In this document: positions 1 to 10,449 of the stretch, in pieces | How the letters are laid out: every line of letters starts with the position of its first letter | How positions within the stretch are numbered: position 1 is the stretch's first letter | Source: Pseudomonadota bacterium | GTDB lineage: Bacteria > Pseudomonadota > Gammaproteobacteria > Halothiobacillales > Halothiobacillaceae | Assembly: GCA_021795795.1 (NCBI GenBank) | Contig: JAJYPA010000262.1 | Coordinates: 1-10,449 of the forward strand | Direction of reading: 5' to 3' | DNA: 10,449 bases | The notes under the pieces: generated by a model | Database searches by the model: none | What the model was told of the DNA's origin: nothing | Seen by the model: the letters and a program-made list of their open reading frames with translations, nothing else | Translations under genes and position numbers: made by a program

Positions 1-20
1 ACTCCGGACCGCCCAGTTTT

Positions 21-153
21 ATGTATAGCATAGCGACACCGTTCGTACCAAATAGCCAGCATTGACAGGGCTTACAGCCAGCTCGACATGCACGCTATAC
101 ATAATCACGAGGTATACATAACAGTCTTTATGTATATATATACATAAAGACTG
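21..153 (-). repeat. Left recombinase-type end repeat (inverted relative to right copy)
   Basis: Read outward on the minus strand from position 153, this block holds a perfect palindrome (153-122), then TTATGTATACCTCG and, after one variable base, GATTATGTATAGC (to 94), then a spacer containing TGGCTG and CCCTGT, and last an inverted box CTATACAT (28-21). It aligns without gaps to 9020-9154 on the plus strand. The tandem-box part differs at one base, and the distal box lies 109.5-116.5 bp from the palindrome centre in both copies. Similarity stops at the palindrome on the inner side and at about the distal box on the outer side. The build, an inverted pair of motifs plus extra direct and inverted copies, is that of a tyrosine recombinase end with core-type and arm-type sites. 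That role is inferred. Confidence 0.85.
122..153. repeat. Perfect 32-bp palindrome at left end
   Basis: All 16 base pairs match around the centre 137/138. The inner 20 bp are TTATGTATATATATACATAA, identical to the core of the right palindrome. The outer six pairs (CAGTCT/AGACTG) differ from the right copy but still pair with each other. It could be a recombinase core site with two inverted binding half-sites, a cruciform, or a palindromic insertion target. Confidence 0.9.
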
Positions 154-275
154 GTAGCGGACGTTGGGTTCGGGTAAGGAAACGCCACACGCCCTGTTGT
201 AGAAAAATATTAATTTCATTGTGTTATATAACAGCAGGGAAATTACCAGAATCCTGGTTCTTAAATTTTTCCCCA
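154..275. other. Short gap between left end repeat and DUF262 gene
   Basis: No gene is supported here. An inverted repeat, ACCAG at 245-249 and CTGGT at 254-258, lies just after the stop of the minus-strand operon, with weak A/T pairing around it. It has no good T-run, so it is at best a poor terminator. This segment shows no similarity to the sequence inside the right end repeat. Confidence 0.5.
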
Positions 276-2495
276 TTATTGAGTGTCGGTTTTAGATGTT
301 CCCAGCTCCAGGTAAGTGTCGACATTTAGTGTGTGGTACCAGCTGCCATACAAAGCCACTAACCGTCTCTGGCACGCACCTACAAACCTGCGGGCAGCTT
401 CCGGTTGTGCAGTTTGCTCTAGAGTTAGTTGAAAATCTTCGGTTTTTGGCAATCCAAATTTGGTTTCCACGTGTGGATTAGCGGCTTTATCCAGAATAAG
501 GAAGCATTCGTCACCCACTTCTTTGTAGGCGTTATCTCCACCTTTCACGCTCGCTTCAATCGTGCCATAACTACGATTGCTCGAAAAATCAATTGCAATC
601 ATGTTGCCTATGGTTTCCTGCCAAGTTTTGCAGACCCGATGGTAGGGCCCGGCACTCCCCCTGCGCCCATCTAGAGTTGCGCTCGCCAGAATATGGTCGT
701 AATCCCATGGCCGATTATGGCCCCTGAACATCCTCCGGTCTGAAGGGTCGAAGCGGTTGAACCTCCCTTCGATGTATCTGCGTTGAGCGTAAAGCAAAAG
801 TTCCTTTTGGTTACATAACTTATTGACAAATACGCCAACATTGTACAGTCTGCTATTATCATGCTCTTGCGCAAGGCTTTTATTGCTTTCTGGCAAGTTC
901 ACCACACCTTGCCACATGTTCCCCCAGTTAGCGAGATCCTGATCATTTAGCTGGTGAGATAAGTGAATGGCCTCTGCCACTCTTTCTGGCGTCTGCAACG
1001 GAGTCAAATATGTTTTTCGACCATCAAGGTCGACGATTCTCTGAAGAGGAATTTTGTAGCCTTCTTTGACCAGCACATTCACTGCGCGATCTTTATCTTC
1101 ACCAAACCAGTGGATTGCCAACGCCAGCCCAAGAATACGTTTGGCCGTCGTGGCGTCAGACAAGTCTTCTAATCCGAAGCTATCGGCCAGATACATCAAC
1201 CAACTGAACACAGCTGGAGATGACCACGCCAGACTGCTGCGCAAATAGGCAGGAATGCCGTAAGGCCGATCATTGGTGTATAGAAAATTTCTGTCGATCC
1301 AGTGCAGTGCCTGCGTTATTGGCGGTTTTTTATCTTCTTTGTAAAAGTATCGGGTGAGTTTTTCGTGCAACACATCGTCTTCTTTCGTAGCCTGAACTTG
1401 TGAGTTATCAGCCCCCGCCTGACTTCTGCCAAATATTTTCCGTATCCGCTCAATGGAGAGTGCAGGCCTGAGCTGTTCGCGTTTCTGTTCATTCAACGTC
1501 AGCGCCGTGCGCATGCCCATGTTGATCAATCGCGCATCGCCGGTGTGCCTTAACTTGCTTTTGGTAATTTCGGTCATTGTAACTTCAATTTCAGGCCAAT
1601 AGGCCTTGATCATCGAGTAGGCAAGTTCCTCGGGATCCAGAGTAGTGCCTTGACGATTCAACCGGACGAATACCTGCTCAATCTCATCTACTTCATGCAC
1701 ACTATCAGGAACACAGAGAGCGATGACTCTTGTATCCAATGCCTGTTTCAGCCCACGCTCAACGAAGCGGCGTTGATCTTCTGCCAGGGATTTGACAGCC
1801 ATGTTTTTCCAACGTTGCGCCTGTTCAACCATGGGTCGTCTTGCAAGCTCATCCCAGTCAATATGACCGCCATCTTTGTTAAAGCATTCGATGAGATCCG
1901 CAACAGGTACAGGCAAAACGGAGTCCTTGGGAACGCACTTGTTTGGCAGGGGGCGTATCGCTTGATCGCCACAGCTGGCATTTTCAGACGAACAATCGTC
2001 GTGTAGCTCTCTCCAACGATCGAGAAACTCAAGGCGATCGCATACTCCAAGCGTAGAGCCCGCATCATCCCGTCCGAAACCCCAGGGATGTGCGCGTGTC
2101 GTAACCCGGAACAGGTATTTGCGTGTCGAGTTTTTGAGTCGGTCACCCGGGAGTAGATCAAGCCAGAGCATTTGTTCTTTGGCTTCAGGGATGTTGGCTA
2201 CCACAAATCCCCAAGTGATGGCGTTGCACCTCTGCTGTCCGTCAAGCAGGTGGTAATCTGGCGCCGGACCATCGTTCTGCCGTATTTGATTCTGCAGAGG
2301 CCGAGCGATCACGATCGAGCCAAAAGGAAAACCACGCATCAGTGAATCCCAAAACATCTCGATCTGCGCGGGATCCCAAACCAAGCCGCGCTGCAAGGAC
2401 GGAGTATCGATACGTATTTCATTAGAATTAGATGATTTGTACAACTGCCATAATGCGATTTCTTTAAGTGAAAAGCTAGGTGTTTTGTCTTCCAT
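276..2495 (-). CDS. DUF262/HNH (GmrSD-like) nuclease, 739 aa
   Basis: The N-terminal region (about residues 30-100) has the DUF262 signature: QRGLVW at 35-40, a stretch ending in RGFPFGSI, and the motif DGQQR at 85-89. The C-terminal part carries a DUF1524-type HNH pattern: WDYDH with His601, then IGN (Asn631) and Asn640. In GmrSD, BrxU and SspE, a DUF262 ParB/Srx-like domain uses nucleotide hydrolysis to drive an HNH domain that cuts modified or phage DNA. A similar cytoplasmic restriction role is inferred here, and the target modification is unknown. The protein is long for the family, with about 400 residues between the two signatures. The ATG at 2495 is chosen over an upstream TTG (2516) because AAGGAG lies 6 nt before it. 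It is the last gene of the minus operon, 21 nt after the WYL gene's stop. Confidence 0.87.
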   Translation of the reverse strand: MEDKTPSFSLKEIALWQLYKSSNSNEIRIDTPSLQRGLVWDPAQIEMFWDSLMRGFPFGSIVIARPLQNQIRQNDGPAPDYHLLDGQQRCNAITWGFVVANIPEAKEQMLWLDLLPGDRLKNSTRKYLFRVTTRAHPWGFGRDDAGSTLGVCDRLEFLDRWRELHDDCSSENASCGDQAIRPLPNKCVPKDSVLPVPVADLIECFNKDGGHIDWDELARRPMVEQAQRWKNMAVKSLAEDQRRFVERGLKQALDTRVIALCVPDSVHEVDEIEQVFVRLNRQGTTLDPEELAYSMIKAYWPEIEVTMTEITKSKLRHTGDARLINMGMRTALTLNEQKREQLRPALSIERIRKIFGRSQAGADNSQVQATKEDDVLHEKLTRYFYKEDKKPPITQALHWIDRNFLYTNDRPYGIPAYLRSSLAWSSPAVFSWLMYLADSFGLEDLSDATTAKRILGLALAIHWFGEDKDRAVNVLVKEGYKIPLQRIVDLDGRKTYLTPLQTPERVAEAIHLSHQLNDQDLANWGNMWQGVVNLPESNKSLAQEHDNSRLYNVGVFVNKLCNQKELLLYAQRRYIEGRFNRFDPSDRRMFRGHNRPWDYDHILASATLDGRRGSAGPYHRVCKTWQETIGNMIAIDFSSNRSYGTIEASVKGGDNAYKEVGDECFLILDKAANPHVETKFGLPKTEDFQLTLEQTAQPEAARRFVGACQRRLVALYGSWYHTLNVDTYLELGTSKTDTQ

Positions 2496-2501
2496 TTTCT
2501 T

Positions 2502-2507
2502 CTCCTT
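2502..2507 (-). promoter_or_regulatory. Ribosome binding site of DUF262 gene
   Basis: AAGGAG on the minus strand ends 6 nt before the ATG at 2495. This decides the start against the in-frame TTG at 2516, which directly abuts the previous stop. Confidence 0.8.
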
Positions 2508-2516
2508 GGCCTGCAA

Positions 2517-3548
2517 CTAATGACTCGAGATATCTCTTTTGCTTTTCATCAAAGCGATTGAACCTTCCATGTTCTGCAATATCAGATCGCAAATCTTTTT
2601 CGGGGCCAGGACCGTCATGTTGATGGATTGACCAAGAATCCACCATTCTAACTGCCATGTATGCGGTACTGTTGCTTTTACAAAGAAGCCATCGTCTAAG
2701 GATTCTATTACCTGATCCAGTGACAATGGCGTTTCCAAAAGGATCTGCCCTAGCTCCTGTGAAACTAACGCTTCCAGACTTATAAGGCCGTTTTCAGACT
2801 TGAAGTGGCCGTGACCTTCCTCCAGGTATTGTGCCAGTGAAAACCCTTGGGGCATTTCCCGTTGTTTGTCCAGCATCGTCACACCAGACATTCTGTGTAA
2901 TGCATACAACCGCACATCCTCATAGTCATATGCCGTTGCCACGAGGTACATAATGTTCCCTCGCAAGATCAGTCCCAGGGGATGAAGCCGTATCGGCTCT
3001 GCCACGTCTGCGGTCAGACGTCGATACGCTACCTCCACCTGCATTTCCTGCAGTACGGCTTCCTGGATAGTGCCCAGAATTTCCGGATCAACAACTGGCG
3101 GGAGTAGTGGCATGGTGGGCGGAACGCTTGCGATCTTATCCTGCCAGCGATTAAAGGGGTGTTCTGATCCCAATGACTGCAGTTTCCTTTTGGCCAGCGC
3201 GAACTGTGGTTGCATCACCCGGGCCAATGCGGAGGGCAGAAAAGGCCGAACGGCTTCCTCCGTCATGGCCAGTGACAGGGCCTCTGCAATGGAGATTCCC
3301 GGTATGTCACACGCCGCATTATCGCCCCAACGCCATCCGTAGGGTTGCCCCTTGTCATTGCAGAGCAATGGAAAAATACCAGACAACACTTCCAGATCCC
3401 GCAACACCTGGCGTTTGCTGACCTTAAACCCACGGTCATGCAAAGTCTGCTGTAATTGAACAGCCGTCATCCCATTCCCATGCCGGGGCAGACATTTCAG
3501 GATCTCCCACTGGCGTAGGAGTGTGTCCCCGCGTCCCTGGCTACCCAT
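2517..3548 (-). CDS. WYL-domain transcriptional regulator, 343 aa
   Basis: The layout is that of bacterial WYL regulators. There is an N-terminal winged helix-turn-helix (about residues 8-75, with VSKRQVLRDLEVL as recognition region), a linker, a WYL domain (about 170-222: AYRR, IRLHPLGLILRGN, YLVATAY, LYALHRM) and a C-terminal WCX-like part (about 255-335). The name-giving tripeptide reads Met200-Tyr-Leu rather than Trp-Tyr-Leu. Related proteins (BrxR, CapW) repress phage-defence operons and are thought to sense a nucleic-acid or nucleotide ligand through the WYL pocket. Here it probably controls its own operon and perhaps the divergent one, via 5505-5732; that is inference. The ATG at 3548 overlaps the upstream stop as ATGGGTAG, with a GGGGGA ribosome site just before. 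An upstream TTG at 3575 is less likely. Confidence 0.9.
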   Translation of the reverse strand: MGSQGRGDTLLRQWEILKCLPRHGNGMTAVQLQQTLHDRGFKVSKRQVLRDLEVLSGIFPLLCNDKGQPYGWRWGDNAACDIPGISIAEALSLAMTEEAVRPFLPSALARVMQPQFALAKRKLQSLGSEHPFNRWQDKIASVPPTMPLLPPVVDPEILGTIQEAVLQEMQVEVAYRRLTADVAEPIRLHPLGLILRGNIMYLVATAYDYEDVRLYALHRMSGVTMLDKQREMPQGFSLAQYLEEGHGHFKSENGLISLEALVSQELGQILLETPLSLDQVIESLDDGFFVKATVPHTWQLEWWILGQSINMTVLAPKKICDLILQNMEGSIALMKSKRDISSH

Positions 3549-5001
3549 GTGCTTCCCCCATGAAGTGCCGGACAATGTGGATCATAGCCAGTGTGTCCCG
3601 TTCACAATAAGTGAGCAGTGCCGCACGGACCTCTTCTCTGCGCAGAGGGTCAGCATCTGGGCTCAACATCTCCATAAAGGCTTCCTGTGCCATACCCCCA
3701 TTTGCTACCTCAAGATCATCGTAGGCGAGCTCTGGAGCAATAGTCGGGAGAACGGCCTTGATGGACCAAGAGCCTTTCATGGCGGGATGGTAGTAATAAG
3801 CGCGAGCGATGGGCAGTAGATCTACCACCCGCGCCAGAACGGATTGTACAGCCTGTGATTGTTGCGGAAGTTGCTCTGCCAGTTCGCGCAATCGGGCATT
3901 CTCGAACCCGGCATTATAGACCAATATGGGTCCCGTATCCCCCAACGCCAGCAGTAGTGTGCTTAAAAAGTGAGGTCTAGGGTCGTCCTGTCCATCCGCA
4001 AGATAAGCGTCATGAGTAATGCTGCCATCCGGCTCTTCGCGGTGGCAGGACCACTGAAAGGGAATTTGCTGGTAGGGCCGTGAGTTGGCCCAGAGGGGAA
4101 TCGCCGGATTGATGGTTTCAAAATCCATATAAAAACGTGGAAAGGGTAATGCTTGCAGTATCTCCGCTGCTTCTGGGCCGAGGAATGCTTTGTTATCAAT
4201 GCTTGCCTGACGGATACGCTGATACAGGGGATGGCTTAACCGGTTTTTCGGTACTTGGCGTAAATCCTCATACCCCTCCGCTCTCAAAACCGCTGCAGTG
4301 GCCCTACCGCGCGGCAGCAATGCAACGGGATATTCCGGCGGATCCGGCAGGTCTTTTTCGCAATACCCTATAAAAGGACAGGAGAATGGCGTTTCACATT
4401 GATCACCAGGCACCATATCTGGTTCTCCACCCGCCAGTGTCGCCTGGGCAGCGCTGATCCATTGCGGCACTTCAGGAAGCAGCGGCGCAATGAACGTATC
4501 CACTGACTCGGTTGAGAAGAGTCCCTGGTAATTACAGTTGCCGGGGTAAACGAATTGATTGTTGATAGTCGCGATGCTGCTCTGCAGGACAGGCACCCCT
4601 GCCTCGCGGCTTATCCAGGTCTGGATGGCGGTATCCTGAGCGTAGTAGGGCTTGATATGGGTGGCCGACTTCACCTCGATCAGATGAAACCCATGTGCCT
4701 GGGGCAGCAGAATGTCCACACGCACCAGCGTTCCCGCTGCCTGCAGAGTGGCTTCAAAAATTGGGCCGCTCGGAGATTGGAGTAATGACGCCGTCTCCGC
4801 AAGGGCTGCACGCAAATCATTCGTCTCCACCAGGTGGCCATCCGGAAAGAGGGTTCGTGCAATCTCTCCGACGGTCGTGCCCACATTCATCCGCATCTGC
4901 GAACCCCCATCCACCTCGGCAAGTTCAGGATGATAGGTCTGCAGCCAGAGTCTTTTGGGGCACTGGAGATGCGCTAAAACGCGAGATTTGGACAAACCCA
5001 T
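3541..5001 (-). CDS. DUF2779 protein: PD-(D/E)XK plus DEDD-type nuclease, 486 aa
   Basis: The N-terminus (LSKSRVLAHLQCPKRLW) is typical of DUF2779 and Cas4/AddB-like nucleases. A PD-(D/E)XK core is visible as Asp96 (VDILL) and Glu109-Val-Lys111, followed by YAQDTAIQTW. Cys14 with Cys202, Cys208 and Cys214 matches the one-plus-three cysteine arrangement that holds a [4Fe-4S] cluster in Cas4 and AddB. The C-terminal half resembles a DEDDy 3'-5' exonuclease (RNase_H_2-like): Asp293-Phe-Glu295, Asn363/Glu367 in YNAGFENARL, Asp394, and Tyr465-x3-Asp469. A DNA-end-processing enzyme is inferred; its substrate is unknown. The ATG at 5001 shares one base with the preceding gene's stop (TGATG), indicating coupled translation. 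A TTG 45 nt upstream would add 15 unconserved-looking residues. Confidence 0.87.
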   Translation of the reverse strand: MGLSKSRVLAHLQCPKRLWLQTYHPELAEVDGGSQMRMNVGTTVGEIARTLFPDGHLVETNDLRAALAETASLLQSPSGPIFEATLQAAGTLVRVDILLPQAHGFHLIEVKSATHIKPYYAQDTAIQTWISREAGVPVLQSSIATINNQFVYPGNCNYQGLFSTESVDTFIAPLLPEVPQWISAAQATLAGGEPDMVPGDQCETPFSCPFIGYCEKDLPDPPEYPVALLPRGRATAAVLRAEGYEDLRQVPKNRLSHPLYQRIRQASIDNKAFLGPEAAEILQALPFPRFYMDFETINPAIPLWANSRPYQQIPFQWSCHREEPDGSITHDAYLADGQDDPRPHFLSTLLLALGDTGPILVYNAGFENARLRELAEQLPQQSQAVQSVLARVVDLLPIARAYYYHPAMKGSWSIKAVLPTIAPELAYDDLEVANGGMAQEAFMEMLSPDADPLRREEVRAALLTYCERDTLAMIHIVRHFMGEAHG

Positions 5002-5504
5002 CAGACGCGATCTTCGGCCATCGTTTTGGGAACGGACAATCTCCAACCTCTTGCTTCGTAAACGGCAGGGCCATTGACCAGACGCATCACGAGCAGCGAC
5101 AACAAGCCCACCACGATCATGGCGGTGCTACGGCTATCGCTTTTTTGGGAATCATCCTTGCCGTTGGCATTCAGAATATCCATCCAGCTCACCACATAGA
5201 CGAAACTCAGGATGATCTTGGCGACGAGCACCGGGAGAGCTAAAAGCCACTGCCATCTATTGTATTGAAGGGTCAGCCACACACTGTATAGCCACGCCCC
5301 TGCAGCCAGGAAAAAGACCAGGTAGGCCAGGACCTCCTGACCACGTATTGCCAGTTGATACCCCACAAAGAACAGCGCCCACGGTGCGAAGGCCAGCCCC
5401 AAGTCCCACTTGTCGTAGTAAAAAACAGCCTTCCGGGTGACCCCCAGAAATAATCCGTACAGACTCACGAGCAGCAGTGCAGCTGCGATAACTTGGCCTT
5501 CCAT
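5001..5504 (-). CDS. Five-helix membrane protein, 167 aa, family not recognised
   Basis: Hydrophobic segments lie at about residues 5-22, 35-52, 57-78, 85-108 and 127-143, giving a likely five-pass inner-membrane protein. A short polar loop (about 112-126, rich in Asp, Ser and Lys) precedes the last helix, and the tail is charged. No catalytic motif or known family is evident. It is the first gene of the minus operon, with AAAAGGAG 8 nt before its ATG, and its stop overlaps the DUF2779 start by one base. Small membrane proteins in defence operons often act as effectors or anchors, but nothing in this sequence proves that. It could equally be an unrelated conserved membrane protein. Confidence 0.78.
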   Translation of the reverse strand: MEGQVIAAALLLVSLYGLFLGVTRKAVFYYDKWDLGLAFAPWALFFVGYQLAIRGQEVLAYLVFFLAAGAWLYSVWLTLQYNRWQWLLALPVLVAKIILSFVYVVSWMDILNANGKDDSQKSDSRSTAMIVVGLLSLLVMRLVNGPAVYEARGWRLSVPKTMAEDRV

Positions 5505-5732
5505 TGGGAATGCTCCTTTTTAACTTTAACCATTTAGTTGGGCTTGATGAATATGACAAGGTCCAGGGTACGCCCTAATCACGTCACATTGGGTCTCGGT
5601 GGAGCGCGTGTGGAAGATTGGGACGATATTTTCAGGCATGGTTCGACCACGACCCAATCTGACCCAGCTGCGCACCATAATAGCTCACATCATCGGTCAG
5701 TGATGCTGTCAAAAATCTACTGAGGGTACGAG
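5505..5732. promoter_or_regulatory. Divergent control region between the two gene clusters
   Basis: These 228 bp separate the starts of the divergent clusters and must hold their promoters unless transcription enters from outside. A CATAAT hexamer (5676-5681) is a possible plus-strand -10 box, but no good -35 box sits at 17 bp. An imperfect inverted repeat, AGGGTACGCCCT (5565-5576), could be part of an operator for the WYL protein. Neither is strong enough to call separately. No gene is seen here. Confidence 0.5.
5513..5520 (-). promoter_or_regulatory. Ribosome binding site of membrane protein gene
   Basis: AAAAGGAG on the minus strand, 8 nt before the ATG at 5504, is a strong site that supports this start for the first gene of the operon. 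Confidence 0.75.
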
Positions 5733-6638
5733 ATGTCAGATTACATGAAGTCAGAAAGTGAGATCGGGCTGCAAAGCGACGTCCATGAATTGTCCGCCAT
5801 GATCCTTACCCTTAAAAAGCTGTGGGATGATTGGTTGCACAGAATATTGCTCCGGCGTGATGATCTAGGCGACCCCTTGCTTGGAGCCTCCTTAGAACTG
5901 AAAGGGGAAATCTACCTAAACTCAGCAAGCGATTGGGCTGATGACCTATGCGACCCGCTGGTAGTTCGGCAATTCCTGCATATTGAAAGTGAATATCTTC
6001 CCGATATGGGAAAAACCGAAAACGTATTCCTGCGCCTGGCAGAAGATATCCAGTCACGGCTCCTCCGGACAGAACGTTTATTGGATATCTATCCCGGCGG
6101 TCCTCTGTCCCTTTCCTGGGCGTTATCGGCCGAGATGTGCCTGGAATACGATGAATGGCGAGTACCGGAAAAACTCGAAACCATAGAAATGCGTAACGAC
6201 GATGAAGCACTGGATGACAATGCGGCCGCCTATCTCTTGGCGTTCAATGACGCGTTAACAGCAAGTGAGGCGTGGCTTCGGCGGGAGATGATGGAATGGC
6301 ATCAAGCAGATACTGATGTGTTAGCTAAGAGTAGGCTGACCGATGTGGATTGGGTGAATATTGATCTACAGTACCGGTTCCCCCCTGGCACCAGACGAAA
6401 TTTAGTGGTCCAGGCTGACATGTTGCTTGACGATGGGGAGGGTACCAATTACAACGTTTTTGCTGCAATGAATGCCCACCCATTGGCGAGACAGCATCAT
6501 TGCTGGTTTTTCCACGATTTATACGACCATCATCCACTGTCGTTCAGTGAAATCTGCCGTATTACAGGTTGGCGTTTTGTGCTGACACGACGGGCGTCCT
6601 TTTTTTCCAACGAAAGCACCCGGACGGAACATGCCTAA
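5733..6638 (+). CDS. Unrecognised acidic 301-aa protein
   Basis: The family is not recognised. The start is supported by GAGGG 6 nt before the ATG. The protein is soluble and acidic, with a mainly helical-looking N-terminal two thirds and no membrane segment or signal peptide. The C-terminal part (about 245-285) is rich in His and aromatics: His249, HH255-256, Cys257, WFFHDLYDHH at 258-267, and Cys275. This could form a metal site or simply be a structural core; no established nuclease or kinase motif is seen. It is the first gene of the plus-strand cluster, and its end overlaps the next ORF as ATGCCTAA. Because it lies in the same cluster as a PP2C phosphatase, it may be that enzyme's partner or substrate. 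This is inference from position only. Confidence 0.8.
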   Translation: MSDYMKSESEIGLQSDVHELSAMILTLKKLWDDWLHRILLRRDDLGDPLLGASLELKGEIYLNSASDWADDLCDPLVVRQFLHIESEYLPDMGKTENVFLRLAEDIQSRLLRTERLLDIYPGGPLSLSWALSAEMCLEYDEWRVPEKLETIEMRNDDEALDDNAAAYLLAFNDALTASEAWLRREMMEWHQADTDVLAKSRLTDVDWVNIDLQYRFPPGTRRNLVVQADMLLDDGEGTNYNVFAAMNAHPLARQHHCWFFHDLYDHHPLSFSEICRITGWRFVLTRRASFFSNESTRTEHA

Positions 6639-6858
6639 AAATGCGTTTCAAAAGGCTTTCGCAAGCTGGCCAACAACGAACCATCATCGCTTTGTGGATA
6701 CGCGTACAGAGGATGGGCATTTCCAAGGCAGAAACGGTGCCCGGTGGATACCAGGAAAAAAGACGCATTGGAAAATGAACCGATCTTGCACTTCCCGAGA
6801 TGAGGTTTGGTTTCGCAGCCTCTTTGAGCCAATGCAATGCCAGAGCCGTGACGACTGA
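6631..6858 (+). CDS. Possible small basic protein, 75 aa
   Basis: The ATG overlaps the stop of the preceding gene as ATGCCTAA, a common arrangement for coupled translation. This is the main reason to keep the ORF. The product is rich in Arg, Lys, His and Trp, with an RNGARWIPGKKTHWK stretch at about 34-48 and two cysteines, and no membrane segment. No family is recognised. The ribosome site is weak (GGACGG). A 148-nt gap follows before the phosphatase gene. It may be a nucleic-acid-binding partner of the 301-aa protein, or a chance frame. Confidence 0.4.
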   Translation: MPKNAFQKAFASWPTTNHHRFVDTRTEDGHFQGRNGARWIPGKKTHWKMNRSCTSRDEVWFRSLFEPMQCQSRDD

Positions 6859-6875
6859 TCTGCCAGCAACGCGCC

Positions 6876-6900
6876 GCTGCTGTAGAAACATAAAAGCAGC
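6876..6900 (+). other. Short hairpin upstream of PP2C gene
   Basis: GCTGCT at 6876-6881 pairs with AGCAGC at 6895-6900 across a 13-nt loop. No T-run follows, so it is not a standard terminator. It may affect mRNA processing between the two halves of the cluster, or be chance. Confidence 0.25.
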
Positions 6901-7006
6901 ACTTAGGCTCGCGTCGGTAATCTGCAAGAACGTCACGATGATGAGAACGCCACACGTTCAATGGACACTTTACAAAAATAGGCGCAGTTAGAGGAGCGAT
7001 AACATT

Positions 7007-7780
7007 ATGGCTACAACCATCCGATATGCCGCATGGAGCGATTCTGGAGGCTTCCCCTGCAATGAAGATGCTCTTTTGGTCCATGGCGATGTTCATCAGG
7101 GGGTTTCCATCTGGGCTACGAATACGGTAACCATCGACAAGCCCACTGTTTTTGCCTGTGCTGACGGTCTGCATATTGGTCGGGGTGCCGCTTGGGCCAG
7201 CAGAACCCTTCTGGAGTTGCTGCGCGACAGTTATCTTACTTTCCCGATTTGGTCACCCCAGGCTCGGATTCAATGGCTGCAGAGCACACTGACCAAAAAC
7301 GGACAGCGGTATCCGGGGGCTGCCAGTACTTTGTTGTGGGCAGAACTGCAAGAGACCCGCTTAACGCTCTGCCATGTGGGTGACAGCAGGGCCTGGCTGA
7401 TTCGCGACAGTGTGGTGAAGTTGCTTACCGAAGATCAGACCGTGGCTACCGATCTGCGAAACGCAGGATATGCAGCAGACAATCATCCCCTTTTGGCGAG
7501 TAGTTATGGGGCATTAGCCGAATATTTTTCGGTGGACGCGTTCGTGGACGTACCGCATGCTGTAACGCAGAGCATGCCGTTTAAGGAGGGAAACCTGCTT
7601 CTCTTGGGAACAGATGGCATCGCTCACCTGGAGTTGCCAGAAATCATGATCCTGGCAGCAGAACTGATCGCGCGGGCGAACTCCTCATCCGGTCAACCGT
7701 CCAGTCCGAGCATAAGACGGTCGCCAGAAGGACCGGATAATCGCAGTGTGATTCTTATTTCAAACCATAGAGGGTATTAG
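7007..7780 (+). CDS. PP2C-family Ser/Thr protein phosphatase, 257 aa
   Basis: The PP2C motifs occur in order: SDSG with Asn19-Glu20-Asp21 (motif 1), Asp53-Gly54 followed by RGAAWAS, GAAST at 104-108, GDSRAWL at 125-131, LTEDQT at 140-145, GTDG with Asp203, and PDNRSVIL with Asp244-Asn245. All four metal-binding aspartates are present, so an active Mn/Mg-dependent phosphatase is expected. The usual DGMGGH stretch reads DGLHIGRG, an atypical variant. The length is that of a bare catalytic domain, and there is no membrane segment, so it acts in the cytoplasm. GAGGAG lies 10 nt before the ATG. No kinase is encoded in the window, so the phosphoprotein target is unknown. The next gene starts 2 nt after its stop, which points to a shared transcript. 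Confidence 0.88.
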   Translation: MATTIRYAAWSDSGGFPCNEDALLVHGDVHQGVSIWATNTVTIDKPTVFACADGLHIGRGAAWASRTLLELLRDSYLTFPIWSPQARIQWLQSTLTKNGQRYPGAASTLLWAELQETRLTLCHVGDSRAWLIRDSVVKLLTEDQTVATDLRNAGYAADNHPLLASSYGALAEYFSVDAFVDVPHAVTQSMPFKEGNLLLLGTDGIAHLELPEIMILAAELIARANSSSGQPSSPSIRRSPEGPDNRSVILISNHRGY

Positions 7781-7782
7781 GC

Positions 7783-8028
7783 ATGTCAGACAAGCAATGG
7801 TCGGAGGAACTACAGCAATACACCCGCGAATTACTGGACAAGGGAACCTTTGGAATAAATCCATTGACCTGCGAAGTGTGTTTCAAGCATATCAATGGCC
7901 AGTATGGCTTCATTGACGCCCGCGATGCGAGCGACGAGAGATATCAAATGCATGTGCGCGGAAGTGAAGAGACTATCAGTTTTCCTGACTCAGCATCATT
8001 GGTAGAGTCAGGATGGGCTTTAGACTAA
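7783..8028 (+). CDS. Small unrecognised protein, 81 aa
   Basis: The ATG lies 2 nt after the phosphatase stop, with GAGGG 8 nt upstream, so co-translation with the phosphatase is likely. The product is acidic and has a CEVC pair (Cys30, Cys33), a possible half metal site, and no membrane segment. Its start context (GAGGG, then ATGTCAGA) resembles that of the 301-aa gene at 5733. No family is recognised. It may be an accessory or inhibitor protein for the phosphatase; that rests on position only. Confidence 0.68.
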   Translation: MSDKQWSEELQQYTRELLDKGTFGINPLTCEVCFKHINGQYGFIDARDASDERYQMHVRGSEETISFPDSASLVESGWALD

Positions 8029-8063
8029 CTGGTTTTATGACAAAACAGAAAACGATTTATTTT

Positions 8064-8071
8064 AAAGGAGG
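8064..8071 (+). promoter_or_regulatory. Strong ribosome binding site of 108-aa gene
   Basis: AAAGGAGG lies 7 nt before the ATG at 8079. It fixes the start there rather than at in-frame codons further upstream that overlap the preceding gene. Confidence 0.8.
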
Positions 8072-8078
8072 CCAGACA

Positions 8079-8405
8079 ATGGAAAAGGAAATGCCGTGCT
8101 GGATTGTTTCATCAATAAGCCCAAAAATAACTAGTCTAGTACTCCTCAGCGAAGAGAGAGCGAAAGAAGAAGCGGTGAAGTTATATGGCATGCTTCTAAG
8201 TGAAGCGTTTGCCGAGTTTGAATCTGACTATCCAGATCGGGCTATTTGTTGTGATTTACAGGGCATCATTTCCAGCGCTAAGAATAACATCAAAAAAACC
8301 GATGATGGTTACTGCTACATTGAGGGAGAATCAATAAAAATATCTAAGAACAATTACGTAGATACTCAGTCTATATCTATTACTAAAGCCATAGCTATTT
8401 TCTGA
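8079..8405 (+). CDS. Unrecognised AT-rich 108-aa protein
   Basis: The start is set by a near-perfect ribosome site 7 nt upstream. The N-terminal half is helical-looking (about residues 24-50, with SEERAKEEAVKLYGMLL); the C-terminal half is rich in Lys, Asn, Ile and Ser, with a repeated SISITKAIAIF-like beta pattern. No family is recognised and no membrane segment is clear. Its second half is markedly richer in A and T than its neighbours, and it uses many ATA and AAA codons, which suggests separate acquisition. It lies 50 nt after the 81-aa gene and may be the last gene of the plus-strand transcript. An immunity or accessory role cannot be told from the sequence. Confidence 0.65.
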   Translation: MEKEMPCWIVSSISPKITSLVLLSEERAKEEAVKLYGMLLSEAFAEFESDYPDRAICCDLQGIISSAKNNIKKTDDGYCYIEGESIKISKNNYVDTQSISITKAIAIF

Positions 8406-8552
8406 TGTGTATTTTCTTTAGAAAGAAAAATATTACGGAGAATGCGACATCCGATTTTGCAGGCTACGCAGTGCATTGGACGTGCTGATCAATGATGCCG
8501 TGTCTAAAATGGAACCCGATACGATAGCTAAATTTTAATGGAAATATTGGCT

Positions 8553-8747
8553 TTATGACTTCCAAGTGTAGCGGGGTGGAGGCAGGGCTCCGCCAAAGCA
8601 TTCCGTACCACATTGATTTTCGCAAGCCCCATGTATCCAGAAATCACCACAACTGCATGAATGTTTGGGGAAATCGTAGACATGGGTGGCATAGGGCATT
8701 AACAGACGACTATATGCCCTTGCAATCAGTCGGATAGTCTCATACAT
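8553..8747 (-). CDS. Possible small SWIM-like cysteine protein, 64 aa
   Basis: A minus-strand ORF has AGGA 7 nt before its ATG. Its centre reads CSCGDFWIHGACEN, which fits the spacing of a SWIM zinc finger (CxC, x8, CxH), except that the final His is Asn here. Two more cysteines follow (QCG, TEC). SWIM fingers bind nucleic acid or protein, often in transposases and recombination factors. The ORF is short, lies alone in a decayed region, and is opposite in direction to its left neighbour, so it may be a fragment or chance. Confidence 0.35.
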   Translation of the reverse strand: MYETIRLIARAYSRLLMPYATHVYDFPKHSCSCGDFWIHGACENQCGTECFGGALPPPRYTWKS

Positions 8748-8856
8748 GACGTGGTCCTGGTTAGGAGGGCTCGTCGCAGGTCTTCTTTATAAATTCATGC
8801 AAGAAGGAAAGACTGATATGCGTTTTAGAGAAGCACTTAAACAAGTCGATATATAA
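8746..8856 (+). CDS. Possible 36-aa membrane micro-ORF
   Basis: It starts with MTWSWLGGLVAGLLYKF, a short hydrophobic segment, then a charged tail ending QVDI. No ribosome site precedes the ATG, and the frame upstream is open back to 8695, so it could instead be the tail of a lost gene. The call is weak. Confidence 0.2.
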   Translation: MTWSWLGGLVAGLLYKFMQEGKTDMRFREALKQVDI

Positions 8857-9019
8857 TCGTTTAAAGTTTAAAAACGAAGGTTTAATAGATACTTCCTTTC
8901 TGGACACTTTCGGGGCCATTTCTGGCACTGATTCTGTCCATCAACTTGTCGATCTTCTTTGTGCAGCAAACGTCACCGGGCGATTTTACGTGCTGCCCAC
9001 CAATTTCTGAATGACTGCA

Positions 9020-9055
9020 AACGCTGCTTATGTATATATATACATAAGCAGCGTT
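9020..9055. repeat. Perfect 36-bp palindrome at right end
   Basis: Every base pairs around the centre 9037/9038. The 20-bp core equals that of the left palindrome, while the outer arms (AACGCTGC/GCAGCGTT) are unrelated in sequence to the left arms yet fully self-complementary. Confidence 0.9.
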
Positions 9056-9154
9056 ATGTATACCTCGCGATTATGTATAGCATCTACGGCGGTGTGGCTG
9101 AATACCCTGTAAATATTGATCTTGCTGTAGATGTTGCGCCCGGATGATATACAT
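9020..9154 (+). repeat. Right recombinase-type end repeat
   Basis: This copy reads outward on the plus strand: palindrome (9020-9055), tandem boxes TTATGTATACCTCG and GATTATGTATAGC (9054-9081), a spacer with TGGCTG at 9095 and CCCTGT at 9105, and an inverted box ATATACAT (9147-9154). It matches 153-21 in reverse complement, gap-free and with the same spacing. The tyrosine recombinase gene starts 50 bp beyond the distal box, so that box may also overlap the gene's promoter. Confidence 0.85.
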
Positions 9155-9191
9155 AATCTGAGTGATACGTTGAAGTGATGATTCTTCTACT

Positions 9192-9196
9192 GGAGG
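9192..9196 (+). promoter_or_regulatory. Ribosome binding site of recombinase gene
   Basis: GGAGG lies 8 nt before the ATG at 9205. It falls in the loop of a possible weak hairpin (GATGAT at 9177-9182 with ATCATC at 9199-9204). Confidence 0.75.
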
Positions 9197-9204
9197 TCAT
9201 CATC

Positions 9205-10449
9205 ATGAAACGTACCAATCCATTTTACTCCTCTCCTGAGGCATTCCTCCTCGCCAGTGTGCTTGCGCCGCACATGGACGCATACACAGCCCACCTACAG
9301 CTTGGCCGTTATGCTACTAGCACAATCCAGGGCTACATTTTGGGTCTTGTGCATTTTGCACACTGGATGGCTAAAGATAATATTTCCATCAACTTACTGA
9401 ATGAGATGGTTATTCATCGATTCCTAAATGATCACCTCCCCCACTGTGACTGTCCATCCCCGGTTAATCGTGACTTCTTCACCTTGCGGGCAACACTCGG
9501 TAATCTGCTGAAGGTATTGCGCGAACAAGGAGTAATCGCCGAGCAGCCCGCACCTACGGGCGATATCGCTGACGAACTAAGTCGGTATCACGCATACATG
9601 CATAATGTGCGAGGGCTCAGTGTAATGACATGCCGTGGGCGGCTACGCACCATCCAACGGCTCCTACTACACAAATTTGAAGACCGTCCCGTCGAGATGG
9701 AAACGTTACAACCCAATGATATTCGTCAATTTGTTGCCAATCAGCTCAAGCAAGTAGACACAATTTCTAATGCGAAGGCGTTGGCTGCTGCATTGCGCGA
9801 TTATTTAGGCTATAGAGCAACCTGCGGTGACCACGTGGATAGCATGCTTGGCGTGATATCCTTGCCTGCTAACTGGAGTTTGGCTTCTTTGCCGCGTGCG
9901 CTCGCACCCGCTGATGTTGACCGTCTTCTCGAATCATTCAATGCCGCGCTTCCATCTCCAAAACGCGGCTACGCCATGGTGCGCTGCGCCCTAGACATAG
10001 GCTTGCGCTGTAGTGAAATAGCCAGTCTTCAACTGTCTGATATCGACTGGCGTTCCGGCACCGTCACGCTCAATCGGACAAAGGCGCTGCGCCAGGACAT
10101 CTTGCCACTGCCAACTATTACCGGAGAGGCGCTGGCAGACTACATCCGCTATGAACGCCCCAAAACCACCAATCAGGGGGTCTTTGTTCGTGTTTATGCG
10201 CCCCACGATCAGTCAATTAGTGTTGACACAGTCCACCGCGTGATACGTGATGCCTACCACCGCATCGGCCTGACGCATGGGCGCTCTCATGCATTGCGCC
10301 ACACGCTGGCATGCCAACTGGTCAATCATGGTAGCTCACTCAAGGAAGTAGCCGATCTTCTGCGGCATCGCTCGCTGAATACCTCACTCATTTACGCCAA
10401 GCTGGATATCACGAGTCTGGCCGCTGTCGCCTTACCGTGGCCGGGGAGC
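9205..10449 (+). CDS. Tyrosine recombinase/integrase, 3' end outside window
   Basis: The frame is open for 415 codons to the window edge. The N-terminal part (about residues 20-110 and 120-205) looks like SAM-like core-binding domains. The catalytic domain (about 230-410) shows Arg268 (GLRCSEI), Lys293, His362-x2-Arg365 (SHALRHT), His388 (LLRHRS) and the nucleophile Tyr397 (LIYAKLD), so the enzyme should be active. The last residues (VALPWPGS) look like a normal C-terminus, so the stop is probably just beyond. Such enzymes cut and rejoin DNA at specific sites through a 3'-phosphotyrosine link. It lies directly outside the right end repeat, whose TGTATA boxes are its likely binding sites. It resembles the recombinases of RIT elements, where three such genes follow one another; only one is visible. 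Confidence 0.93.
   Translation, partial: MKRTNPFYSSPEAFLLASVLAPHMDAYTAHLQLGRYATSTIQGYILGLVHFAHWMAKDNISINLLNEMVIHRFLNDHLPHCDCPSPVNRDFFTLRATLGNLLKVLREQGVIAEQPAPTGDIADELSRYHAYMHNVRGLSVMTCRGRLRTIQRLLLHKFEDRPVEMETLQPNDIRQFVANQLKQVDTISNAKALAAALRDYLGYRATCGDHVDSMLGVISLPANWSLASLPRALAPADVDRLLESFNAALPSPKRGYAMVRCALDIGLRCSEIASLQLSDIDWRSGTVTLNRTKALRQDILPLPTITGEALADYIRYERPKTTNQGVFVRVYAPHDQSISVDTVHRVIRDAYHRIGLTHGRSHALRHTLACQLVNHGSSLKEVADLLRHRSLNTSLIYAKLDITSLAAVALPWPGS

Follow-up and report, generated by a model that had tools for sequence, protein, structure and literature searches.

We analysed a stretch of 10,449 bp, called the window throughout (positions 1 to 10,449 of contig JAJYPA010000262.1, assembly GCA_021795795.1, forward strand), from a Pseudomonadota bacterium of the family Halothiobacillaceae. 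Two repeats in opposite orientation lie close to its ends and enclose a group of genes, here called the cargo. With a probability of about 0.82, these repeats belong to two units of the RIT ('recombinase in trio') family that inserted independently, each repeat being the end that carries a palindrome, with host genes between them. RIT elements have three overlapping tyrosine recombinase genes (ritA, ritB and ritC) and inverted ends; the accessible part of PMC3414803 describes such elements as about 3,500 bp long, with an inverted repeat of 28-9 bp, an 'overlapping palindromic sequence' and an unexplained variation of the ends.

Positions 21-153, taken as the reverse complement, aligned with 9022-9154 without gaps at 91 of 133 identical positions (68.4%). 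No other ungapped placement in the window scored as high; the runner-up reached 57 and the highest among 200 mononucleotide-shuffled windows 59, which bears out the repeats of about 133 bp around the cargo proposed in a first-pass annotation of this DNA. Boxes of the TTATGTATA type were identical at all 45 positions between the left and right repeats, compared with 42 of 76 positions beyond the boxes and palindrome arms, and the spacing of palindrome, tandem boxes (17 bp apart) and distal inverted box was equal in both, so that the conserved architecture and the selected look of the boxes also hold. The palindrome itself, TTATGTATATATATACATAA, is a perfect 20-bp sequence made of two abutting boxes and is the same in both places. 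The 6-mers beside it, read from the cargo towards the palindrome, are CAGTCT on the left and CGCTGC on the right, and are thus unlike between the copies; within each copy the flanking 6-mers are mutual reverse complements, so that a perfect 32-bp palindrome occurs twice. The features of the two repeats are:

1-18, minus strand: interior start of the left element, over which similarity to a gene-less element of locus L072 (see below) carries on
19-27, minus strand: distal inverted box of the left element, TTATGTATA, spaced as is 9148-9156
96-104, minus strand: tandem box 2 of the left element, plus strand TATACATAA
113-121, minus strand: terminal box 1 of the left element, plus strand TATACATAA
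122-127, minus strand: left inner 6-mer CAGTCT, which separates the palindrome from the element end, the inner 6-mer position in relatives
128-147, no strand: 20-bp palindrome of the left unit, perfect and identical to 9028-9047
148-153, no strand: left outer 6-mer AGACTG on the target side, reverse complement of 122-127, the outer position in relatives
154-169, minus strand: left target half-site (arm) on the cargo side, ACCCAACGTCCGCTAC towards the 6-mer, fitting the consensus at G-9, C-7 and G-5
8863-9027, no strand: dispersed Acidithiobacillus repeat ending in the target half-site; other copies continue through the 6-mer without a palindrome
9006-9021, plus strand: right target half-site (arm) on the cargo side, TCTGAATGACTGCAAA, fitting the arm consensus
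9022-9027, no strand: right outer 6-mer CGCTGC on the target side, present in six of seven unoccupied target copies (TGCTGC in the seventh)
9028-9047, no strand: 20-bp palindrome of the right unit, identical to 128-147
9048-9053, plus strand: right inner 6-mer GCAGCG, reverse complement of 9022-9027
9054-9062, plus strand: terminal box 1 of the RIT A end, TTATGTATA
9071-9079, plus strand: tandem box 2 of the RIT A end, TTATGTATA
9148-9156, plus strand: distal inverted box of the RIT A end, TATACATAA
9205-10449, plus strand: ritA (tyrosine recombinase), running beyond the window end, within the 9009-10449 match to L001 (see below)

Perfect palindromes of 32 bp can form hairpins, and these might terminate transcription or have some other role that has nothing to do with recombination. 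We find this hardly credible: the core of the palindromes has TTATG boxes in common with the element ends, the distance of 6 bp is fixed, and the 6-mers are tied to target duplication (see below). Rfam and tRNA scans of the window gave no match.

The elements at the two ends

The right repeat adjoins a tyrosine recombinase gene that starts at 9205, as the first-pass annotation had stated, and the window stops inside this gene, ritA. Positions 9009-10449 were 98.3% identical over 1441 bp to a region of contig 73 of Acidithiobacillus montserratensis GG1-14 (L001; collected loci carry such numbers), where all three overlapping genes are visible: ritA at 9998-11257, ritB at 11233-12225 and ritC at 12218-13231. 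The products of ritB and ritC in L001 are Phage_integrase proteins, its far end holds a C-side copy of the same boxes, and its terminal inverted repeats, 9844-9878 and 13297-13331 inverted, are 97% identical over 35 bp. This match to a complete ritABC element with a C-side end points to the right repeat being the ritA-side end of a RIT element that would continue past the window, in agreement with the earlier assignment of this copy to the adjacent recombinase element.

The RitA protein of the window matched the Pfam families Phage_int_SAM_1 (residues 126-201) and Phage_integrase (233-401, 3.6e-28), and a SAM_4 match at residues 25-75 stayed under the Pfam cut-off. Residues R268, K293, H362/R365, H388 and Y397, which we take to be the catalytic ones, were invariant in an alignment of 11 sequences headed by P0001, a protein 99% identical to that of the window. 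A search of viral_contigs did not find the exact palindrome, and its 43 pattern matches for RitA relatives yielded 0 confirmed.

On the left, positions 2-127 of the window were 96.8% identical to 1849-1974 of L072, a locus of another Acidithiobacillus genome. The match is one end of an element of about 442 bp with RIT-type ends and no evident genes (a mini-RIT), whose palindrome lies at the opposite end and which has CAGTCT direct repeats outside. The similarity, 97%, takes in the left end and most of its 18 bp of interior; the earlier statement that it stopped at the distal box does not hold against this closest relative, where it extends to base 2. To judge from these alignments, the left copy is the end of a second RIT-family element facing the opposite way, most likely a gene-less mini-RIT like that of L072, and possibly a full RIT with the same end, because merely 18 bp of interior lie within the window. 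To the first-pass annotation this copy had looked like the far end of another element copy; that it is the end of a different element is supported.

Gene-less elements of about 442 bp occurred at full or nearly full length in 11 places in six of 17 Acidithiobacillus genomes, and 6-bp direct repeats accompanied several copies. In those six genomes the best-scoring RitA match was at most 30% identical. Repeats at many sites without recombinases, which the earlier annotation had counted as evidence against its view, were thus found in part. A further form was seen in contig 86 of genome G018 (L138), where RitA was matched over its first 30 residues and, right beside it, RitC over its last 77; this is apparently an internal-deletion form of the window-type RIT.

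Anatomy of the unit and place of the palindrome

With an alignment of RitA relatives 59 loci were gathered, and both ends were located in 44 of them (15 dropped); the 37 RITs whose flanks both reached 33 bp or more were kept (7 dropped for short flank). RIT bodies measured about 3.1-3.5 kb. A palindrome was called when at least 7 of 10 pairs formed no more than 1 bp from the expected place, a level of pairing that 1.6% of 200,000 positions drawn at random from these loci also reached. By this measure the palindrome stood at the A end (the ritA side) in 14 RITs, at the C end in 15, at both in three and at neither in five. The outermost 6-mers of the 29 one-sided units were exact direct repeats in 22 and shared at least four bases in 26. 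When the palindrome was excluded, the 6-mers around the RIT body alone were exactly direct in none of the 29 and exactly inverted in 20, and we rejected the idea that the body by itself is flanked by a simple target duplication, since the 6-mers around it are inverted. The same change of side was found within one genome: Methylomicrobium wino1 has five RIT copies with identical bodies, and their palindrome is at the A end in three and at the C end in two.

Where genomes were searched as a whole, exact palindromes lay next to an element box (TTATG/CATAA, at most one mismatch) in 6/6 cases in the 17 Acidithiobacillus genomes and in 9/10 cases in wino1, and the palindrome was rejected as a plain dispersed repeat on these counts. 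Among the loci collected the figure was 53 of 54 contexts paired at 9/10 or better, a count biased by the fetching of loci by RIT, palindrome or mini-RIT.

Several targets could be compared in uninterrupted form. In wino1, the RIT unit of L020 (about 9824-13345) interrupts an integron-integrase-like gene; joining its flanks with the A-side 6-mer CACCCA gave an open frame that aligned without a gap across the joint with IntI4 (2a3v, E 3.7e-49). Five joined Acidithiobacillus sites (L001, L072, L074, L075 and L076) were compared with the loci collected, and three had an uninterrupted counterpart with both flanks: L163 for L075 (77% over 240 bp), L164 for L001 (84% over 88 bp) and L131 for L072 (91% over 92 bp), each with a single 6-mer and no palindrome. 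Seven copies elsewhere of the dispersed repeat at 8863-9027 of the window (L078-L082, L090 and L091) continue past CGCTGC (TGCTGC in one), and the DNA that follows is not palindromic. These copies have their left half in common, and their right half differs right after CGCTGC, as if sites of this type recombined themselves.

Because these uninterrupted targets (L020, the three counterparts and the seven repeat copies) lack the palindrome, and because direct 6-mer repeats appear solely when the palindrome is counted in the unit, the palindrome most likely belongs to the element and travels with it; the joined frame of L020 and the uninterrupted Acidithiobacillus targets also made us think it unlikely to be part of the target. 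The opposite arrangement, a resident chromosomal palindrome serving as a landing pad beside which RITs insert, would agree with the palindrome at either end of otherwise identical RITs and with the solo palindromes of L065 and L166. We nevertheless consider it unlikely, given the target copies without a palindrome, the near-constant neighbourhood of palindrome and element box (genome-wide in wino1, and in the biased set of loci) and the dependence of the direct repeats on the palindrome.

A number of observations weigh against our reading of two palindrome-bearing RIT units. Five of the 37 RITs had no palindrome and three had two; homologous recombination between a unit with the palindrome at A and one with it at C could have given rise to both classes as its reciprocal products, or the two-palindrome contigs could be assembly effects. 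The outer 6-mers differed at the fixed position in seven of the 29 one-sided units, in two of which (L016 and L032) the palindrome is displaced by 1 bp. Two palindromes stood alone, one in L065 (1501-1520) and one of 18 bp in L166. As to the counterparts, the best match of L001, L153 (98.6% over 140 bp), holds just 20 bp of the left flank, and that of L075, L162 (91%), covers about 20 bp of one flank; the counterpart of L076 is 42 bp only, and for L074 none across the joint was found among the loci collected. The Acidithiobacillus counterparts are mostly dispersed repeats, that is, paralogues rather than proven empty orthologues, a caveat of which the evidence from L020 is independent. The 37 RITs are not independent, as several share or come from related genomes, and their ends were hand-picked from computed candidates. 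The body of the left element lies outside the window, which leaves both the mini and the full form open to it. Among six distant plasmid RIT regions, three could not be parsed and one fitted weakly. The flanks of the two solo palindromes bear inverted or nearly inverted 6-mers.

The plasmid set comprised seven regions, of which L168 (EbN1) was omitted as split by insertion sequences. Those of Methylomonas and Sinorhizobium meliloti (L167 and L173) conformed, and that of Sphingobium (L171) was the weak fit. Plasmid pHG1, named as especially rich in RIT elements in the accessible part of PMC3414803, has two identical ritA copies; one, read by eye, showed a 20-bp palindrome, TCATGCCGCTAGCGGCATGA, with inverted 6-mers at the same distance, and the other no palindrome on the A side (the third pHG1 RIT could not be parsed). 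In L168, plasmid 2 of A. aromaticum EbN1, positions 6022-12969 hold two opposed RIT gene sets with their ritC sides facing, one of them split by an insertion sequence.

The target itself is symmetric. In 31 units (four mini-RITs and 27 one-sided RITs out of 29, with L016 and L032 set aside because of their 1-bp offset) the arms showed the same consensus, roughly GAnnGnCnGCnnn, on each side of the 6-mer, which gives a symmetric GAnnGnCnGCnnn-N6 site; on the two sides G-9 was present in 87% and 84%, C-7 in 94% and 90%, and G-5 in 84% and 68%. The flanks of L072, L131 and L147 are dispersed, imperfect hairpin-like sequences with two arm-6-mer-arm sites, whose 6-mers, CAGTCT and CGCTGC, are the two found in the window. 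Such compound hairpins are reminiscent of the layout of integron attC sites, but the attC consensus is absent there.

Orientation and the DNA between the elements

Outward from the body, palindrome-bearing units have the order box, 6-mer, palindrome, 6-mer and target arm. Both palindromes of the window point at the cargo, and the sequence next to either outer 6-mer, towards the cargo, agrees with the consensus of the target arm. With palindromes and target arms both on the cargo side, the cargo lies outside both elements, most likely as host DNA.

This orientation bears directly on the two arrangements that the first-pass annotation had considered. The repeats are inverted, like terminal repeats, and they might be the two ends of one large element with the cargo inside; in 32 palindrome-bearing RITs and in the mini-RITs the boxes face the body and the palindrome faces the target, however, whereas the cargo of the window is on the palindrome side twice. 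With ritA to the right and, by comparison with L072, the interior of a mini-RIT to the left, the orientation contradicts a single large element, to which we give next to no chance.

The annotation's other proposal was a composite transposon, in which the left and right RIT-type elements would jointly move the 9-kb cargo by way of their outer (C) ends. The cargo is indeed flanked by two RIT-family ends in opposite orientation and has the look of accessory DNA, its DUF262 protein having distant matches alone, in two of the 17 Acidithiobacillus genomes. However, the ends are 68% alike and not near-identical, their 6-mers differ, towards the cargo either palindrome is bordered by a separate target half-site, as for independent insertions, and the left end resembles a gene-less mini-RIT. 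The composite arrangement finds no support in these features and we hold it to be quite improbable; two separate insertions remain our preferred explanation.

The genes between the elements are:

276-2516, minus strand: DUF262/GmrSD_N protein (Pfam GmrSD_N, 8.1e-22)
2517-3548, minus strand: WYL-domain regulator (Pfam WYL, 1.7e-15; WCX, 1e-06)
3541-5013, minus strand: DUF2779 protein (Pfam DUF2779, 3.5e-43)
5001-5504, minus strand: open reading frame (ORF) of 167 aa, no family
5733-6638, plus strand: ORF of 301 aa, no family
7007-7780, plus strand: PP2C-type phosphatase (Pfam PP2C_2, 1.2e-05)

Positions 276-5504 form a minus-strand run (GmrSD_N, WYL, DUF2779 and a small ORF) with the divergent PP2C phosphatase alongside, and the cargo perhaps consists of defence-related accessory genes. 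Presence of the cargo in relatives without the repeats, which the annotation had named as an outcome that would tell against it, was not seen: among the matches listed for the 17 Acidithiobacillus genomes (in 10 of which just 17 first-look candidates each were scored), none fell within 170-8582 of the window. More dispersed Acidithiobacillus repeats were found at 8583-8883 (query parts 8484-8660 and 8661-8784).

How the units may move, and related systems

The sequences show the anatomy described above, with the 6-bp direct repeats, the change of sides, the symmetric target, the uninterrupted targets without a palindrome and the gene-less derivatives; from these we infer a circular intermediate, a 6-bp staggered strand exchange and a division of the boxes among the recombinases. 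The unit has a body, in which ritABC is framed by inverted ends (A and C) with TTATG boxes, and a detachable 20-bp palindrome. If X is the 6-mer and x its reverse complement, an integrated unit reads arm-X-palindrome-x-A...C-X-arm' or arm-x-A...C-X-palindrome-x-arm'. The recombinases would cut 6 bp apart, and recombination of the outer sites, arm-X-palindrome and end-X-arm', would release a circle with the joint C-X-palindrome-x-A. Such a joint would offer two equivalent crossover sites, each of the form end-X-palindrome, and either could recombine with a new arm-X-arm', which would duplicate X and leave the palindrome at either A or C.

The palindrome may in this way act as a switchable third end, through which the two joints of the circle become equivalent crossover sites, each insertion picking the A or the C joint and the alternation keeping the 6-mer in register; we regard the chances of this as about even. 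A pattern search of the loci collected did not find the joint of a circle or tandem (a palindrome with element boxes on both sides), which speaks against it. Side switching might instead come about in place, with the RIT body flipping between its flanking inverted 6-mers. The exact inversion of these 6-mers in 20 of 29 one-sided units implies a shared overlap and suits this alternative, but inversion alone does not explain new insertions; nothing decisive separates the two and both may happen. Inversion in place is a possibility that we rate clearly below the switchable third end.

Compared with the RIT descriptions cited, the present data add the palindrome at either end, the outer 6-bp direct repeats with inner inverted 6-mers, the symmetric target motif and the gene-less derivatives. 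We found no account of an end-changing palindrome or of mini-RITs in the accessible parts of the open literature searched; the main paper on RITs (Ricker et al. 2013) lies outside that literature, and priority over it cannot be claimed. The strand-biased circularizing integrative elements (SEs) and the GInts are similar in having tyrosine recombinases and a 6-bp spacer exchanged at the ends; as far as the accessible text goes, they make six-nucleotide staggered cuts, exchange 6-mers and form circular intermediates (PMC5385486, PMC10214605). They differ in having four conserved genes, two or three of them for recombinases, whereas the RITs described here have three recombinases and the either-end palindrome. 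The only ORFs of at least 100 aa wholly between the ends of L001 were ritA, ritB and ritC, so that at this length no set of four genes, as in SEs and GInts, is present.

An inverted core with tandem accessory boxes for a tyrosine recombinase, as seen here, is presumably also the layout of the internal resolution site of TnpI in Tn4430 and Tn5401. That site lies inside a Tn3-family transposon and resolves cointegrates, whereas the boxes described here are the termini of the element. No Tn3 transposase domain was found in the nine window ORFs scanned with Pfam, and the body of L001 is filled by ritABC. The mini-RITs resemble miniature inverted-repeat transposable elements (MITEs), being copies of about 442 bp with RIT ends, no evident genes and, in several, 6-bp direct repeats; if mobile, they would rely on tyrosine recombinases and not on a DDE transposase.

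RIT elements occur in many bacteria, and their target specificity, empty site and movement are entered as 'not tested' in Table 1 of PMC10214605, as far as its accessible part goes. A switchable third end, if true, would account for two puzzles of earlier work, the variable ends and the additional palindrome, and would suggest a split of labour among the recombinases over element boxes, palindrome and unrelated symmetric target arms. RitA has two core-binding domains according to the accessible text of PMC8138268; such a pair would be fitting if one protein holds two boxes together, which is speculation. With this anatomy as a rule, RIT boundaries can be annotated and gene-less RIT derivatives recognized, such as the probable one that, together with a real RIT, here mimicked a recombinase-bounded cargo island. 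Exact predictions of circle joints, of target sites and of minimal substrates also follow from it, and would make movement by three recombinases directly testable.

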